A stretch of DNA of 36,492 nucleotides. Source: Deltaproteobacteria bacterium. Its GTDB lineage: Bacteria; Myxococcota_A; Polyangia; Haliangiales; Haliangiaceae. Below, piece by piece: positions 1-8,217 of this stretch (position 1 is its first letter; every line of letters starts with the position of its first letter). A program made the position numbers and the translations under genes. Below the pieces are notes generated by a model. It had not been told where the DNA came from. It saw nothing but the letters and a program-made list of their open reading frames with translations, and searched no databases. The stretch lies in the NCBI GenBank assembly GCA_005887925.1, contig VBLP01000424.1, forward strand, positions 1-36,492, given 5' to 3'.

Positions 1-528
1 TGCTCGCGTGGCGGCCCGATCTCTCTATCTTCTTTCGCCTGCTTGATGCATTGTAAGGTGGCGATGGCCTCCCGATGCCATTCTGCACGGGATAGGTCGG
101 ACGACTCTCAACCATGAACCTCATCAAGGAGCCAGTCAGAGCGAAATTCGGTGGGGCGATCGTATCGGGATCAACCCGACGCTTGAGCTGCGCCCTGCAA
201 ACTCGTTAGTTGCACTCGCGGAATTAGTAGCCGTACTGCAATTTTCACGCCCAGCTATCGCTTGATTTGGGTCTAGAGGGGGCGGGAAGGCCCCCTATCG
301 ATCGACCGGTTGATGGGCCTGGTGCCGCACGAGTTCAAGGCGCTGATCTGCACGCGACCGTGACCGCGTGCGACGTGCCTCATGTGCCGGAGCGGCGACG
401 CAGCGCGCGGTCCGGGCGCCTTCGCACACCGCGCGATGCCGCGCGCGTGACGTTCCGAGACCCGCAACAACCCGAGGTGCGATCTGGTCCGTGGCTTGCT
501 GTATCTCGGCTCATTGGAGGTTTGCCCT
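1..528. other. Left-edge region without a confident gene
   Basis: No convincing gene is seen here. The first 260 bases are visibly richer in A/T than the rest of the window. On the minus strand one frame stays open from about 210 to the window edge and another from about 114 to the edge (reading ESSDLSRAEWHREAI and on). Either could be the start of a gene leaving the window, but I recognise neither. A hairpin with 7-bp arms AGGGGGC/GCCCCCT lies at 277-296 without a T-run. From about 300 on, the DNA has the high GC of the genome and simply leads to the Shine-Dalgarno at 516-520. Confidence 0.4.
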
Positions 529-816
529 ATGAGTCGCCTAGCTTCTCTTGGTTTGGTCATCGCTCTCGCGCTCGGTGCACCGGCAGTCGCGTCGGCGGCG
601 CCCGCGCGCGAGACCGCGACGCAGGTGTCGCCGGCATCCGACGCCAAGGCAGCGCCAGCACCAGCGCCCGCCTCCGCCCGGGACTCGTCCAGCTACGCGC
701 AGCGCGAGCAGCAGGACAAGCAGGTCGCCGGCTACGAGGGCGGTAACGTGGTTGTCATCACCGCCTCGGGGACAGCGCTGCTTGTCGCGCTCCTGATCCT
801 CCTGATCGTGATCTAG
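529..816 (+). CDS. Small exported protein with Gly-Gly motif and C-terminal membrane helix
   Basis: This is a 95-residue protein of no family I can name. A signal peptide (about residues 1-24, ending ASA-AP) is followed by an Ala/Pro-rich stretch (25-55), a short charged segment with YAQREQQDK, a Gly-Gly pair at 71-72, and a very hydrophobic end (74-95) that finishes without basic residues. The start is fixed by GGAGG at 516-520, 8 nt before ATG 529; an upstream in-frame ATG at 496 would put the signal peptide inside the protein. The next gene, a C39-type peptidase, begins only 4 nt after the stop. C39 peptidases normally cut after Gly-Gly, so I infer that this protein is the partner or substrate of its neighbour. 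The product could be the released Ala/Pro-rich part or the hydrophobic tail. Function is otherwise unknown. Confidence 0.75.
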   Translation: MSRLASLGLVIALALGAPAVASAAPARETATQVSPASDAKAAPAPAPASARDSSSYAQREQQDKQVAGYEGGNVVVITASGTALLVALLILLIVI

Positions 817-820
817 CTGC

Positions 821-1417
821 ATGCAGCGGCCAGGTCAGCCCCCGGCTCGCGTCGCCGGGCTCGTGATCGCGATCGTCGGCCTGGCGTGCCAGCTGCCGTA
901 CACCGGCGGCGCACGCCCGGTCAGCCCAGATACCGTCGGGGATGGTTGGTACCGAGCGGCGGCGACTCCGGTCGTCCGCCAGCAGCAGGAGACGGATTGC
1001 GGCCTCGCCGCGCTCGCCATGGTCGCGGGCGCGTGGGGCCGGCGGTGGTCCGTCGACGATCTGAGCCGCCGGCTGCCACCGAGCAAGCGCGGCGTCAAGC
1101 TGGGTGACCTGCGGGACCTCGCGCGCACGCGCGGGCTCGAGGCCTACGCGATCCGGGGCACCACCGGCGATCTCGCCAGCGAGCTGTCGCACGGCCGCCC
1201 GGTCGTGCTCGGCCTGCTCCTGCCCTACGATCGCGGCCACAACGCCAGCCACTACGAGGTCGCGGTCGCGATGCACCCCGGCGACGGCTCGGTCGTGACG
1301 ATCGATCCCGCCTCGGGGCAATGGCGGCAGCGCACGCGCGCCGTGCTCGACCTCGAGTGGAAATCGGCGGGGTTCGCCACGCTCGTGGTCGTCGGCGACC
1401 GCCAGGCCGCGCGGTGA
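821..1417 (+). CDS. Stand-alone C39-family cysteine peptidase, exported
   Basis: The 198-residue protein has an N-terminal hydrophobic segment (11-23, ending LAC, a weak lipobox) and one papain-like C39 domain (about 50-192). The visible catalytic set is complete: Gln54 six residues before Cys60 in TDCGLAALAM, His144 in SHYEVAV, and Asp162 in IDPASG. C39 domains in bacteriocin ABC exporters remove Gly-Gly leader peptides. Here there is no ABC transporter or second domain, and the export signal places the enzyme outside the cytoplasm. It starts 4 nt after the stop of the Gly-Gly protein gene and has no Shine-Dalgarno of its own, so translation is probably coupled. A cysteine protease of another clan with similar motifs is the alternative; the catalytic pattern makes C39 likely. 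Confidence 0.8.
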   Translation: MQRPGQPPARVAGLVIAIVGLACQLPYTGGARPVSPDTVGDGWYRAAATPVVRQQQETDCGLAALAMVAGAWGRRWSVDDLSRRLPPSKRGVKLGDLRDLARTRGLEAYAIRGTTGDLASELSHGRPVVLGLLLPYDRGHNASHYEVAVAMHPGDGSVVTIDPASGQWRQRTRAVLDLEWKSAGFATLVVVGDRQAAR

Positions 1418-2476: not shown

Positions 2477-3218
2477 ATGACCGACGAGGAGATCGCAGCC
2501 CTGGTACGCGGCGACGAGAGCGACCGGGTCGAACGCAAGGAGTCGCTGTCCGATCGCGTGCGGAAAGCGATCTGCTCGTTCGCCAATGATCTCGCGGGCC
2601 ATCGCCGTCCGGGCCTCGTGGTCATCGGCCAACGCGACGATGGCTCGTGCGTCAACCTGACGATCAATGATCAGCTGCTTGCCACGCTCGCCGGGATCCG
2701 CGTCGAAAGTGCGTTCGCGCCGTTCCCCGCGATCGATGTGAAGCGGATGACCATCGATGGCTGTGATGTAGCGGTCGTCGTGGTGCATCCGTCGTCGTCG
2801 CCGCCGGTCCGGTATGATGGGCGCATCTGGGTCCGCGTCGGTCCAACGACACGGATCGCGACGCCGGAAGAAGAGCAGCGCCTCTCAGAGAGACGGCGAG
2901 CATCTCACTTGCCATTCGACGTGCAGGCCGTCGCCGCGACGTCCTCGAGGAAAACCATCGCCGGCCGGAACAGCAGCTCGCGGCCCTCCGGCTCGTCACC
3001 CCCGATGGAGAACCGACCGTCGTGGGGATCCTCGTGCTGGCGAGTGACCCGCTGCGGTTCCTCCCAGGCGCGTACATCCAGTTCGTGCGTTTCGATGGCA
3101 CGGAGCTATCCGCCTCGCCATCGCGAACAAGCGCCTTGCCGCTAACGGCAATCCACCTCTTGAATATGACGTGCAGAGCAGCTATGTCTGCGTTCGCCTG
3201 AAGCGGGGCTCGTCATGA
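2477..3218 (+). pseudogene. AlbA_2-domain ATP-binding protein, decayed by two internal lesions
   Basis: The N-terminal reading (2477 to about 2930) is an AlbA_2/Schlafen-like nucleic-acid-binding domain: ESDRVERKESLSDR, then ICSFANDLAGHRRPGLVVIG, and ending near RIWVRVGPTTRIATPEEEQRL. The frame then changes near 2925-2935, and the next segment reads VLEENHRRPEQQLAALRLV, VVGILVLASDPLRFLPGAYI and QFVRFDGTEL (to about 3104). A second jump leads to GAIRLAIANKRLAANGNPP and a C-terminus ending KRGSS at 3218. From memory of the family (AlbA_2 plus RecG-like C-terminal ATPase region), about 30 residues are missing at the first join and well over 100, including most of the ATP-binding part, at the second. 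The stop overlaps the ParA-like start in ATGA. Base composition is less GC-rich than neighbours. This is a relic of a larger gene, not a functional one. Confidence 0.75.
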
Positions 3219-4291
3219 TCCCTACCATCGGGTTTTTCAATAGCAAGCGTGGCGTCGGCACCACCTCGCTCGTGTATCACCTGGCATGGATGTACGCCGA
3301 CCAAGAGTATCGAGTTCTCGCCGTGGATCTGGATCCGCAGGCCGATCTCACGGCAGAGATGGTGGATGTGGAGCGACTGGAGGCCCTGTGGTCATCCGGA
3401 GGCGGCGACACGATCTATGGGGCCCTCCGTCGAGCCATGGAAGGAGGCGACCAGATCGCGTCACCGCATCGCGAGTCGATCGCTGGTAATCTGGAGTTGC
3501 TGGCCGGCGATCTCTCCATCTCGGATTTCGAGGACGAGCTGGCCTCGCAGTGGAGCCGCTGTCTCGATGGCAACGAGCACGCATTTCGGGCTGTCACCGC
3601 GTTCCATCGCTGCATTCAGGAGGCCGCCGAGGCGGCCCTGGCCGATGTGATCCTCGTCGATCTGGGTCCGAATCTCGGACCGATCAATCGCGCGGCGCTC
3701 CTGGCCTGCCACCATATCGTGGTGCCCGTCGCACCTGACCTCTTCGCGCTGCAGGGGTTGCGAAATCTCGGCCCGGTGGTGTGCCGGTGGCACGACGAAT
3801 GGCAAGAGCGCGTCTCGCGGAGCCATCTTGCTGGTATCTCGCTTATCAAAGATACTATGAGACTTGCTGGTTATGTCGTGTTGCAGGGCGCTGTTCGGCT
3901 GGACCACCCGATGCATTCGCCAGAGGGATGGTGGCGTCCGACACCGGCCGCCGATGCAATCGGTCCGCGCGGTGATGGTCCCGCTTCGTCGGCTCGCACC
4001 TGGATCAGCGTGATCCCGGACGTGTATGCCACCGCGACGGGCTTGATGAACCCAGCTGCCGAACCGTCCAGTGATCCGCACTGCCTCGGCCTGCTCAAGT
4101 GGTACGCGAGCCTGATGCCTATTGCGCAGGAAGCGCGCAAGCCAGTCTTTCATCTGCGTCCAGCGGATGGCGCGCTCGGCGCGCATGCGGTGGCAGCTCG
4201 TGAGGCTCGCAAGGACTACAAGGATCTGGCCGATCGAATCGGTGCTGCAACCTGGCATCCTGGCAAGCCATCGCGGGCTGCTCAACGCTGA
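3215..4291 (+). CDS. ParA/MinD-like ATPase with altered Walker A
   Basis: The 358-residue protein belongs to the deviant Walker A ATPases that partition or position DNA and proteins. The P-loop reads SKRGVGTTSL (10-19): signature Lys11 is present, but the lysine of the usual GKT is Thr16 (codon ACC). Switch I VDLDPQADLT (Asp38, Asp40) and Walker B ILVDLGPNLG (Asp149) are intact. The middle (about 210-265) holds a Pro/Gly-rich stretch that looks inserted relative to related proteins as I recall them. The C-terminal part has CLGLLKWYASLMPIAQEA and FHLRPADGALGAHA, a pattern of chromosomal ParA-like proteins without a ParB partner. The start overlaps the AlbA_2 gene stop by 4 nt, so the two formed an operon. 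No parB or parS-like element is seen. The Walker A change and the decayed partner make normal ATP hydrolysis doubtful. Confidence 0.8.
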   Translation: MIPTIGFFNSKRGVGTTSLVYHLAWMYADQEYRVLAVDLDPQADLTAEMVDVERLEALWSSGGGDTIYGALRRAMEGGDQIASPHRESIAGNLELLAGDLSISDFEDELASQWSRCLDGNEHAFRAVTAFHRCIQEAAEAALADVILVDLGPNLGPINRAALLACHHIVVPVAPDLFALQGLRNLGPVVCRWHDEWQERVSRSHLAGISLIKDTMRLAGYVVLQGAVRLDHPMHSPEGWWRPTPAADAIGPRGDGPASSARTWISVIPDVYATATGLMNPAAEPSSDPHCLGLLKWYASLMPIAQEARKPVFHLRPADGALGAHAVAAREARKDYKDLADRIGAATWHPGKPSRAAQR

Positions 4292-4370: not shown

Positions 4371-7300
4371 CTAATCCAGGCGCGGGATCGGCGGGACCTC
4401 GATCGTGATCAGGTTCACGCCGTCGGGGAGCGCCGCGCAGATCACCTGGATGCGGTCGAGGTGTGCGTAGAACCTGCGCTCGAGCTGGGCATCGGAGAAC
4501 TCGGGCAAGCCGAGCGCGCACGCGCTGGCGTCGTCGGGCACGCCGGTCATCGTCGCGAACAGGTCGCCGGGCTTGGCCGCGGCCACGATGTCCTTGGGGG
4601 CGTGCTCGCCGTCGAGCTGGCGCGCGAGCCGGATGCTGCCGCTGCGGAACCGCCGGGTCATCTCGAGTGCGTTGCTCGACGCGACGCGGCCGGGCAGGAT
4701 GACGACTTCGACGTTGGCGAGCCGGGTGTTGACGGTGTTGCGCACCAGGACGTGGACGACCCGGGTCGGCTTGACGAGCGACAGCGCGACGCCGCGCACG
4801 ACGGGGCCGCGGACCCGGGCGGTGGCGCCGCCGGTGACCATATCGCCGACGCCGTCGATCGCGGCCAGCACGCGGAGCTCGCCGCGCGGCACGCCATCGA
4901 CGGCGAACGAGCCGTCCGCGGCGACCGGCGCGAGGAGGGCGTAGCGCGACCGGGCCGGCCACGCGAGGTCCTTCACCATGATCGCGACGTTGGCGGCGGG
5001 CCGGCCGGCGAGATCGACGCGGCCTTCGAGCCGGCTGGTCGGTGCGAGCGCGAGCCGGAGGTCCTCACCGGCCGCGACCGGCGGCGAGCGGCGGTCGGCG
5101 AGCTCTGCGATCACGATCGCGTCCTCGATGGCGTCGGGGATCTCGAACCGGCCGTCCGCGCCGGTCGTGGCGCTGCGGATCGTGTCGCGGTCGGTGAAGC
5201 CGCCCGCCGCGCCGACCGAGTCGCCGCGCAGTGAGCGGCCCGCGGTCACGGTCGCCCCGGCTACCGGGTTGCCCCGGCGGTCGACGACCACGCCGGAGAC
5301 CCGCTGCGGCGGCGTGTTGGGCAACGCGCGCGCCAGCCGATCGAGCGTGGCCCGCGCGGCGGCGACATCGCCCTGCGCGAACGCCCACTCCGCGGCTCGC
5401 GCGTCGATCGCGCGAACGATCTCGTCGGAGGCGCCGAGCTCGCGGACCGCGCGGGTGCGCCACGCGGCGAGCTGCCCGGGGATCGCGGCGAGATCGTCGC
5501 GGTTGGCGCGGATCTGGCGCAGCGCGAGCACGGCGAGGCCGGCGGTGAGCTCGGGGCGCAGCCGGCCGCGCGCGGCGAAGCCGTCGATCGCCGCGCCGCC
5601 CCGCGCGATCGCCTCCTCGAGGTTGTCGACGCGCCGGGCGACCTCGACGCGCATGAGGTCGACCTGCGCGATCAGGTCGCGCTGGGCGACCCGGCGGGCG
5701 GCCGCGTCGGCGAGCCGCAGCTTGGCGGTCACCGCGGCGCTCAGCCACTCGTTGCCCATCATGTGCTGCGCCGTCGAGATCGCGGTCTCGGCGAGCACGC
5801 GGTCGTCGCCGCAGCGCTCGGCCTCCTGCTGTGCCTCATCGAGGTGACGGCTGCGCTCGGCGAGGGTCTTCTCGGTGTCGGCGGCGAGCAGGTGAGCGAG
5901 CGACGATGCGCACGGGTCGGGCTCGGCGCGCGCGACCAGCGCATCGGCCGCGGCGGTCAGAACCGGCGCCGGCGCCGCGGTGCGCGCGAGCCAGGCGGCC
6001 ATGACCTCGCGCAGCTCGGGCGAGGTGTTCATCATCAGGCGCGGCGCGCGCGGCAGCTCGCAGACCCGGGGATCGATGAGCAGCGCACCGGCGTCGACCT
6101 GCGTGCCGCGGTTGACCCGCACCGCGCGCGCGACCGCGTCGATCCGGGCCAGCACACCGTCGAGACAGACCAGCTGCGGTGCGCGGACGACCGGCGCGAC
6201 CTGGCAGGCCACCGCCCGCGCCGTGCGCCACGCGGCGATCTCGGTGTCGAGCTGCCGGGCGGCGACGGTCTGGCCGGCGTCGGCGTGCCCCGGCGGCCAC
6301 ACCTGCGCCGCATCGAGCACCGGCGGCTCGCAGCGCGGGCCGACCAGCTCGTCGCCGGCGCGCATCGCCACGACGAGCACCACCGCGCCGACCAGCGCTC
6401 CGCCGGCGATCGCCAGCGCGACCCCGGGGCGGCGCTCGACCCGCACGATCCGCGCGAGCAGCGCGTCCATGTTGGGCCAGCGCTGCGCCGGATCGGGATC
6501 GAGCCCGCGCCGCAGGATCGCGCGCAGCCGGCGCGGGATCCGGGAATCGTCGAGCGCGGCCGGACCGAGCGCGGCCTGGCTGCGCAGCTCGTCGAGCGTC
6601 GGCCCGCGATACGGTCGCTCACCGGCGAGCGCTTCCCACAGCGCCACGCAGAATGCGTACTGATCGGTCGCCGGGGTGACCGCGCCGTGGTCCCACTGCT
6701 CGGGCGCCATGTAGGCCGGCGTGCCGAGCAGCGAGCCGGTCGCGGTGATCCCGGTCAGCGAGCTCGGCGTGCCGACCGGCAGCGTCATCGCCGCCTGCGC
6801 CCGGCTCGACGCCAGCTCGCCGAGGTCGCGCAGCGCCGGCAGCGCGGCCTGGGCCTCGCGCGCCAGGCCGAAGTCGGTCACGACGATCCGGCCGTCGCGG
6901 CTGCGCAGCACGTTGTGCGGCTTGAAGTCGCGATGCACGATGCCGGCGGCATGCGCGGCGGCGAGGCCGCGCCCGGCGGCGACGAACGCCGCGACGATCT
7001 CGACCGGCCGCCGCGTTTCGGCGCGCAGCCAGTCGGCGAGGGTCTCGCCCTGGATCAGCTCCATCGCGACGTAGTCGCGGCCGTTCGCGGTGCCGACCTC
7101 GTGCACCGTGACCACGTTGGGGTGCGCCAGCCGCGCCATCGCCCGCGCCTCGCGGAGCAGCCGATCCTTGGCCTCGAGACCGGGTGCGGCGACGCGCAGC
7201 ACCTTGAGCGCGATCCGGCGCTCGAGGTCGGGATCGAACGCCGCGTGGACCACGCCCATGCCGCCCGAGCCGAGCTCGCGCTCGAGCCGGTAGCGGCCGA

Positions 7301-7427
7301 GCGATGCCCCGAGCGCCTCGGCAGGCTCGGGCCGCCCCGTCGATGAGATCGGCGCGGTGGCGGTACGCCCTAGGTCGTCACCCTGGCTCGGATCGCTCGC
7401 CACCGCGGCAGGATAGCGCACCGACAT
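4371..7427 (-). CDS. Receptor-like Ser/Thr protein kinase with carboxypeptidase-regulatory-like domains
   Basis: The 1018-residue protein has a Hanks-type kinase domain (about 45-325): glycine loop GSGGMG (53-58), Lys75 in ALKVL, catalytic HRDFKPHN (165-172), DFG (185-187) and GTPAYMAPEQ after an activation segment lengthened by about 40 residues. A single membrane helix (about 335-356) follows. The outer part contains a long helical region with many Arg/Ala and a few Cys (about 360-710, possibly TPR-like) and then beta-rich carboxypeptidase-regulatory-like repeats starting RVSGVVVDRRGNPVAGATVT. The architecture is a sensor kinase with its sensing part outside the membrane. ATG 7427 is chosen because longer starts overlap the upstream MerR gene and add an Arg-rich tail. 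It is convergent with the ParA-like gene. Substrate and signal are unknown. Confidence 0.85.
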   Translation of the reverse strand: MSVRYPAAVASDPSQGDDLGRTATAPISSTGRPEPAEALGASLGRYRLERELGSGGMGVVHAAFDPDLERRIALKVLRVAAPGLEAKDRLLREARAMARLAHPNVVTVHEVGTANGRDYVAMELIQGETLADWLRAETRRPVEIVAAFVAAGRGLAAAHAAGIVHRDFKPHNVLRSRDGRIVVTDFGLAREAQAALPALRDLGELASSRAQAAMTLPVGTPSSLTGITATGSLLGTPAYMAPEQWDHGAVTPATDQYAFCVALWEALAGERPYRGPTLDELRSQAALGPAALDDSRIPRRLRAILRRGLDPDPAQRWPNMDALLARIVRVERRPGVALAIAGGALVGAVVLVVAMRAGDELVGPRCEPPVLDAAQVWPPGHADAGQTVAARQLDTEIAAWRTARAVACQVAPVVRAPQLVCLDGVLARIDAVARAVRVNRGTQVDAGALLIDPRVCELPRAPRLMMNTSPELREVMAAWLARTAAPAPVLTAAADALVARAEPDPCASSLAHLLAADTEKTLAERSRHLDEAQQEAERCGDDRVLAETAISTAQHMMGNEWLSAAVTAKLRLADAAARRVAQRDLIAQVDLMRVEVARRVDNLEEAIARGGAAIDGFAARGRLRPELTAGLAVLALRQIRANRDDLAAIPGQLAAWRTRAVRELGASDEIVRAIDARAAEWAFAQGDVAAARATLDRLARALPNTPPQRVSGVVVDRRGNPVAGATVTAGRSLRGDSVGAAGGFTDRDTIRSATTGADGRFEIPDAIEDAIVIAELADRRSPPVAAGEDLRLALAPTSRLEGRVDLAGRPAANVAIMVKDLAWPARSRYALLAPVAADGSFAVDGVPRGELRVLAAIDGVGDMVTGGATARVRGPVVRGVALSLVKPTRVVHVLVRNTVNTRLANVEVVILPGRVASSNALEMTRRFRSGSIRLARQLDGEHAPKDIVAAAKPGDLFATMTGVPDDASACALGLPEFSDAQLERRFYAHLDRIQVICAALPDGVNLITIEVPPIPRLD

Positions 7428-7470
7428 CGATCGTCTGATGATCCCGGGCCGGGTTCGCGTTGCGTGCCGC

Positions 7471-8217
7471 TCACGGGCTGACCGCGATCGCGTCGCGGAG
7501 GAACCGGGCAAGGCCGGGGCCGCCCTTCTTGTCGAGCGTCGCGGTGAAGCGCGGGTCGGCGACGTACATCTCGCCCAGGCCCCTGTGCATCTGCGAAGAG
7601 CACGGATAGAACCAGCGGTCGATGTGCTTTCTGTGGTCCTCGACCGCGGCCTGGACCGCGGGATCGGACGCCGCCGCGCCCTGCTGCATCAGCTGTCCGA
7701 TCCGGGTGTAGATCTCCTCGCTTTCCTTGCGGATCGCCTCCCATTCCGGCTTGCCGTACTGCTTGGTGCGCCGGCTCGCCTCGTGGTACGCGGGGGTGCT
7801 GCCCCATCGCTCTCGGGCCTCGTCCTCGTGGTCGGCCGGGTTGAAGCCATCGAACATCGCCTTGAAGTCTTCGGGTTGCATCGTCCTGTCCTCCTCGAGC
7901 ACCTCCAGCGCGGCATCCACGGCGGCGAGCATCGCGTCGATCCGCGTGCGCCGCTCCGCGAGCATCCCGCGATGCTTGCGGAGCAGCGCCGCGCGATCCG
8001 CCGACGCATCTATCGCGGGCCCGATGTCGTCGAGCGGCACGCCGAGCTCGCGGAGCACCAGCACCTGCTGGAGCCGCAGCACGTCGCGCTTGTCATAGAG
8101 CCGGTAGCCCGCCGCCGTCCGCTGCGACGGCCGGATCAGCCCGATCTCGTCGTAGTGGTGCAGCGCGCGCACCGTCACCCCGGTCAACCGGGATAGCTCT
8201 CCGACCGTGAATGCCAT
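7471..8217 (-). CDS. MerR-family regulator with TipAS domain
   Basis: The 248-residue regulator has a MerR winged helix-turn-helix (1-70: FTVGELSRLTGVTVRALHHY, then GLIRPSQRTAAGYRLYDKRD), a dimerisation helix (about 75-110), and a TipAS-like domain (about 115-247: FNPADHEDEARERWG, AYHEASRRTKQYGKPEW, and a C-terminal MYVADPRFTATLDK). TipAS domains bind thiopeptide and other ligands, and TipA activates its own promoter. The promoter found just upstream matches that model. ATG 8217 is preferred to ATG 8235 because the latter lies inside the -10 box, and GAGGA sits just before 8217. The gene is divergent from the EF-hand gene and ends 43 nt before the kinase start. The ligand here is unknown. Confidence 0.9.
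   Translation of the reverse strand: MAFTVGELSRLTGVTVRALHHYDEIGLIRPSQRTAAGYRLYDKRDVLRLQQVLVLRELGVPLDDIGPAIDASADRAALLRKHRGMLAERRTRIDAMLAAVDAALEVLEEDRTMQPEDFKAMFDGFNPADHEDEARERWGSTPAYHEASRRTKQYGKPEWEAIRKESEEIYTRIGQLMQQGAAASDPAVQAAVEDHRKHIDRWFYPCSSQMHRGLGEMYVADPRFTATLDKKGGPGLARFLRDAIAVSP

Follow-up and report, generated by a model that had tools for sequence, protein, structure and literature searches.

How does a cysteine peptidase of the C39 family come to stand outside an ABC exporter, directly behind a gene for a small exported protein with two glycines in front of a hydrophobic end, and what could the two do together? Such a pair lies near the beginning of contig VBLP01000424.1 of the Deltaproteobacteria bacterium assembly GCA_005887925.1, of which positions 1 to 36,492 were analysed (the window). 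C39 enzymes are best understood inside ABC exporters, where they cut leaders while peptides are pumped out. Here, the gene pair, the motif, the catalytic residues and the co-occurrence of both genes in related genomes are established, with a gene for a small GG-tail protein directly upstream in 31 of 32 full-length relatives of the window's peptidase type. The two genes probably encode a dedicated extracytoplasmic protease and its substrate. This kind of pair is already known from public family models (PA2779/PA2778); new are a divergent type, its tight pairing, a code at the membrane that appears leader-like in both types, and the hypothesis of a contact between Arg98 of the peptidase and a glutamate of the small protein at position -13, with Gly72 as -1.

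The two genes and their products

The features of the locus, all on the forward strand, are the following:

516..520, + strand: GGAGG, likely ribosome-binding site of the small gene, read from the sequence; the ATG at 529 lies 8 nt further
529..816, + strand: small GG-tail protein of 95 residues, predicted to be Sec-exported and to have a C-terminal membrane helix; 19 homologues aligned, stop codon at 814-816
529..600, + strand: signal peptide region, residues ~1-24, judged by eye in sequence and alignment
601..690, + strand: Ala/Pro-rich linker, variable (mean pairwise identity 0.25, the lowest among four segments)
694..744, + strand: recognition block YAQREQQDKQVAGYEGG, residues 56-72 (mean pairwise identity 0.47, the highest of the segments)
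739-744, + strand: Gly71-Gly72, from position counts over the homologues
745..813, + strand: hydrophobic tail of 23 residues (73-95) without a basic end, reaching the stop; from sequence and alignment
821..1417, + strand: stand-alone C39 cysteine peptidase of 198 residues, predicted lipoprotein; from Pfam, alignment and a structure model (pLDDT 91.1)
887..889, + strand: Cys23, the predicted lipid-anchored residue, invariant in 20/20 aligned orthologues
998..1000, + strand: catalytic Cys60, invariant in 20/20 orthologues and in 28/28 sequences of a second alignment
980-982, 1250-1252 and 1304-1306, + strand: Gln54, His144 and Asp162, invariant in 20/20 and 28/28
1112..1114, + strand: Arg98, which marks the window peptidase type and aligns with Ile59 of the leader groove of the exporter PCAT1

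An initial annotation, made from the letters alone, had described a 95-residue exported protein with Gly71-Gly72 before a hydrophobic tail (529-816), 4 nt (817-820) away from a C39 peptidase with catalytic residues and an export signal. Coordinates, length and residues were confirmed for both, and Q54, C60, H144 and D162 are invariant in all 20 orthologues. It had also stated that an exporter is absent, which holds for the surroundings of the pair, where none was seen, but other contigs of the source genome (12.2 Mb assembly, 81% complete) hold three more C39 frames, and an ABC membrane domain is present in two of these.

The peptidase itself belongs to Pfam family Peptidase_C39 (PF03412; 52.7 bits against a curated cut-off of 22) and has no ABC domain. 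C39 peptidases are among the best fold matches of its model, and phytochelatin synthase matches as well. Its export signal is a hydrophobic N-terminus that ends at Cys23. A strict lipobox ([LVI][ASTVI][GAS]C) was found in 13 of 30 sequences and a looser form in 24 of 30, with L049 and L051 scored as misses because a Cys further upstream was taken in place of the aligned residue; the GLAC of the window fits the loose form only. The peptidase is thus probably lipid-anchored.

The small open reading frame (ORF) looks like a genuine gene, judging by a ratio of nonsynonymous to synonymous substitution rates (dN/dS) below 1: across 11 selected pairs of relatives, the small gene gave values of 0.23-0.51 and the peptidase gene values of 0.07-0.27. 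The motif [FY]xGG followed by a hydrophobic end of 18-30 residues occurred in 19 of the 2132 stop-terminated frames of at least 60 residues that the window and 19 long loci from relatives contain, and every one of these 19 frames was the gene preceding C39. As a control, 305 frames across 13 loci around C39 domains within long frames did not contain it once. A chance origin of the GG tail was rejected because of this confinement to C39-adjacent genes and its absence from the control frames.

Conservation of the pair

A search for conserved neighbour pairs, as the initial annotation had proposed, gave the count of 31 in 32 from three sets of genomes (19/20, 10/10 and 2/2). The first set consisted of 95 relative genomes, 20 of which carry a full-length peptidase orthologue (E 1.4e-24 or better). 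In 19 of these 20, the ORF directly upstream is small and ends in a hydrophobic stretch; [FY]xGG is present in every one of the 19, even though the filter for upstream ORFs did not require GG. The single peptidase without this neighbour is L010 in genome G004, where a tail gene sits on a different contig. All remaining peptidase matches in the 95 genomes had E values of 1.4e-9 or worse and were mostly found inside long frames; an exception is a fragment of a second pair in G027, located at the end of a contig.

GTDB genomes were scanned next and yielded 51 loci, comprising 16 already in the first set, 10 new close relatives and 25 distant ones, with a neighbour filter that for the latter two groups required GG. 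The 10 close relatives (E 2e-23 or better, one 3e-23) come from eight genomes and have the GG-tail gene in 10/10. Among the 25 distant loci (E 2e-9 or worse), L084 has a GG-tail ORF, which is of the PA2779 type, and L067 and L070 also carry PA2779 genes. Lastly, 282 genomes of the phylum were searched at E <= 1e-12, with the best 11 candidates at most scored per genome. At least 35 genomes matched, mostly in long frames, and at least four new full-length relatives were obtained: L164 and L165 with a window-type partner (a single in-frame TGA interrupts the peptidase of L165), and L166 and L167 with a PA2779-type partner inside the window's own phylum. No tail gene was seen at four shorter partial-match frames of this search (L174, L181, L182, L186).

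Short stand-alone C39 proteins that look exported (frames of 190-221 residues) also occur in Halieaceae and other gammaproteobacterial metagenome-assembled genomes (L079-L083); a GG-tail neighbour was not seen there in the GTDB neighbour scan. Two fen Myxococcales genomes hold two complete pairs each (L051/L057 and L052/L054).

The two genes also occur together at the level of whole genomes. Tail genes were searched in the 95 relative genomes with two profiles, one spanning the entire small protein and one its C-terminal 45 residues; one run scored the best 55 candidates per genome and the other scored all. They were found in 20/20 peptidase-bearing genomes and in 1/75 others (Fisher p 1.2e-19, uncorrected for kinship); the sole tail-bearing genome without the peptidase, G014, is 59% complete. 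Because 19 of the 20 peptidase-bearing genomes supplied the sequences for the profile, most weight falls on the 75 genomes without the peptidase, on G004 and on the additional tail genes. Left out of the counts were a match in G019 (E 4e-4, in a frame of 580 residues) and those in G025 and at a second place in G045 (E 7e-4 to 8e-4, in frames of 350 and 478 residues). There is one tail gene in 18 of the 21 tail-bearing genomes and two in the other three, with two weak hits excluded. The idea that the tail is a general sorting tag with many carriers was rejected on the same count.

Unlinked second tail genes in the peptidase-bearing genomes G020 and G053 suggest action in trans. No C39 motif was seen beside the second or unlinked GG-tail genes L105, L106, L107 and L108 (in G020, G014, G004 and G053, respectively). 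Three of these four read VYIGG or IYIGG after GG, and the ORFs following L105 and L106 have no Pfam match.

Leader code and possible mechanism

In complexes of C39 domains with leaders, the leader positions -4, -7 and -12 are described as occupying a hydrophobic groove, while the GG enters a narrow active site, with Gly-Gly, Gly-Ala and Gly-Ser as typical motifs (PMC6363468, PMC6959990). The double-glycine leader pattern used for comparison was L(-12)xxxE(-8)L(-7)xxxxGG with a hydrophobic -4. It was counted over 34 small proteins (the 19 and 10 from above and five further copies, without L164 and L165). Positions -1 and -2 are Gly and position -4 is Phe or Tyr in 34/34, and -7 is A/V/L/I in 32/34, or in 20/34 if Ala is not counted. 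The small proteins thus agree with the double-glycine leader in the GG, the hydrophobic -4 and the hydrophobic -7. A hydrophobic residue (V/L/I/M/F/Y/W) at -12 was found in 0/34 and Glu at -8 in only 2/34, so that these two parts of the pattern are missing; instead, Glu(-13) is present in 30/34 and Tyr at -17 in 29/34. The C39 leader code therefore seems to be partly kept in the residues before the GG.

The peptidase side was read from an alignment counted by hand. In PCAT1, Ala55 and Ile59 are described as contacting leader positions -7 and -12 (PMC6959990). Ala55 aligns with Leu94, which is hydrophobic in 28/28 window-type peptidases, and Ile59 aligns with Arg98, which is Arg in 28/28. At this position no Arg was found in 32 peptidases of the PA2778 type (L/I/V/M in 31/32) or in nine exporter-like domains. 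By these counts, the missing hydrophobic -12 is accompanied by a new charge in both the peptidase and the small protein, and it is proposed from the comparison of three sequence groups that Arg98 contacts Glu(-13). The 4 of 34 small proteins that do not have Glu(-13) weigh on this proposal.

From these features we infer export, lipid anchoring, docking, cleavage site and product as follows. The small protein would leave the cytoplasm via Sec, lose its signal peptide and remain in the inner membrane through its C-terminal helix, its N-terminus facing the periplasm. The C39 enzyme, attached to a membrane by a lipid on Cys23, would dock on YAxRE..(A/L/V)xx(F/Y)xGG close above the membrane surface and cut after Gly72 at the periplasmic membrane face. 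Such a cut would leave a hydrophobic peptide of 21-26 residues in the membrane and free an Ala/Pro-rich peptide of about 45 residues. The tail is 21-26 residues long in all 34 small proteins, with a basic end mostly absent, and its mean pairwise identity of 0.34 lies between those of the block and the linker. This order of conservation, with the block first and the linker last, weakly favours an N-terminal side that is discarded as a leader and a tail that is the product; the reverse, in which the N-terminal part is released as the product, appears just a little less likely.

The same observations can be read in other ways. The small protein could be a membrane anchor or an inhibitor of the peptidase, with the GG merely a hinge or a pseudo-substrate. 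The docking-like block being the most conserved segment would suit this explanation, as would the conserved pairing in the case of an inhibitor, but the peptidase seems to own a lipid anchor and the unlinked extra tail genes would be odd for a 1:1 inhibitor; it is regarded as unlikely. Somewhat less probable still is a ligase-like sorting reaction, in which Cys60 would cut after Gly72, hold the Ala/Pro part as a thioester and transfer it to a cell-surface amine, in the manner of a sortase with one substrate. A motif followed by a C-terminal membrane helix does resemble sorting signals, and the fold matches phytochelatin synthase as well as C39. Phytochelatin synthase is a papain-like enzyme that forms acyl intermediates and carries out transpeptidation. 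Against sorting stand the usual single tail protein per genome (18/21), the rarity of basic ends and the fact that the part to be displayed would be the least conserved segment. Least probable of all is a Sec-dependent bacteriocin-like system in which the freed tail acts on the membranes of other cells: the tail is short and hydrophobic and the part behind GG is what a C39 enzyme normally sets free (PMC6363468), but tail length varies little where competing toxins would be expected to vary, and no third gene recurs in more than 10 of 20 loci that could be a constant immunity gene, a weak point as most flanks are unnamed.

The dedicated protease-substrate pair remains the preferred explanation. 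No flanking gene family occurs in more than 10 of the 20 loci, several of which end at contig ends. The shared families that were annotated, a reductase-like gene common to 10/20 and a methyltransferase-like gene common to 8/20, offer no clue to the function of the pair. In the window, the next gene (1450-2368) is reductase-like with a weak NAD_binding_1 match (18.8 bits, cut-off 22). It is split over two frames with the switch between 1832 and 1899, and its pieces are 83% and 74% identical to the relative at L111, which indicates a frameshift or an assembly error. Positions 304-360 match 19 residues (666-684) of a 685-residue methyltransferase-like protein with 84% identity, whose gene stands upstream in related genomes; bases 1-303 gave no match to this protein at E 1e-3. 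Further downstream follow an ORF with a Schlafen AlbA_2 domain and then a ParA/MinD-like ATPase (2477-4291), and on the minus strand an ORF for a serine/threonine protein kinase of 1046 residues (4371-7511).

Comparison with known systems

The peptidase domains of the C39 ABC exporters PCAT1, ComA and LahT share with the window enzyme the family, the fold, the catalytic residues and, in part, the leader code. They differ in that the window C39 protein has no ABC domain but an export signal, and in that its presumed recognition block is placed between a signal peptide and a terminal helix. Sorting signals of the GlyGly-CTERM/rhombosortase and MYXO-CTERM/myxosortase type (PMC3237569, PMC6219818, PMC11980579) are similar in that a short motif and a terminal membrane helix are met by a protease of the envelope. 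However, rhombosortase and myxosortase are intramembrane proteases and the window enzyme is a C39 protein with a lipobox, and in the window type a genome usually has a single substrate, a basic end is mostly missing and the motif contains no Cys.

A close parallel is PA2779/PA2778, in which a small exported protein with a Gly-containing site before a C-terminal helix likewise adjoins the gene of an exported C39 protein. Judged by layout, the window genes are a PA2779/PA2778-like pair. At 33 loci chosen by the PA2779 model NF033919 (3 from the GTDB scan and 30 from a survey with this model), a downstream C39 gene was found in 31, the exceptions being L147 and L149; the model was over its cut-off in 31 of 143 Gammaproteobacteria-like genomes. 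At the Oligoflexales locus L084, a PA2779/DUF6627 protein (77.5 bits against a cut-off of 40) adjoins a PA2778-like C39 protein. The two-gene maturation module proposed in the initial annotation gains support from pairing and a partial leader code, but its layout is not unique. Overall, that interpretation is partly supported.

The PA2779-type proteins were compared in a similar way. From 35 loci (the 33 and L166 and L167), 32 tails were extracted, 16 of which have a literal GG, and 11 of those without it have PAGA or PAGS. Counted back from PAG in 31 sequences (L132 has no PAG and stands outside this count), hydrophobic residues (VLIMFYW) occur at -4 in 27, at -7 in 31, at -11 in 30 and at -14 in 28, and are rare between those positions (at most 4/31 at any place from -13 to -5). 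PA2779 types thus also seem to show a leader-like helix, and their cut register may be after AG or G[GAS]. A hydrophobic -4 and -7 is found in both types of small protein.

Among L133-L162, many PA2779/DUF6627 proteins carry a region of approximately TDxxGxTxxFPF after the helix, which the window type does not have.

By family models, the two types are separate. None of the 19 small proteins matches NF033919 or PF20332 (DUF6627) at E <= 0.1. NF033919 matches nothing in the 95 relatives, although 14 control genomes in the same run were negative as well. A profile comparison of both small-protein families gave 8 aligned columns at a probability of 8.7, with GG paired with AG. The two kinds of small protein are therefore not recognisably homologous by sequence. 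The best NCBIfam match of the window peptidase is PA2778 (NF033920), at 30.7 bits far below the cut-off of 150, and this model is matched at E <= 0.01 by 20/20 relatives, the best value being 5.3e-18. A tree of 74 C39 domains groups PA2778 and window types together against exporter-like domains (support 99/95), with a separate side for each (96/92 and 100/99) and with bootstrap not fully settled; the tree labelled L164 as PA2778 group, but its small gene is of the window type and the residue counts list it there. The peptidases differ at Asp162, kept in the window type where PA2778 has Ser/Thr in 30/32, and by Arg98, which only the window type has. The window module would work like PA2779/PA2778 while being no member of those families by their models.

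Literature searches found no functional study of PA2778/PA2779. In the available portions of PMC3985676, PMC10155442 and PMC3697988 the locus names occur only as hypothetical or annotated genes, and the available portion of a classification of papain-like proteinases (PMC10318531) names neither PA2778 nor DUF6627.

A wider view can be put forward tentatively, one that may well be right but that falls short of being probable: C39 peptidases would have given rise to a second branch in gram-negative envelopes, one that does without an exporter and in which the double-glycine leader code lies close to the membrane, in a block of small proteins that are exported by Sec and anchored by their tails. 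This branch would comprise two co-adapted types, the proteobacterial PA2779/PA2778 with an all-hydrophobic helix and the window type with Glu(-13) facing Arg98, each maturing a membrane peptide. If this is true, exported C39 enzymes without an exporter and with dedicated membrane-peptide partners represent a different route of envelope-peptide maturation, and the window pair hints at a possible role of the PA2779/PA2778 genes.
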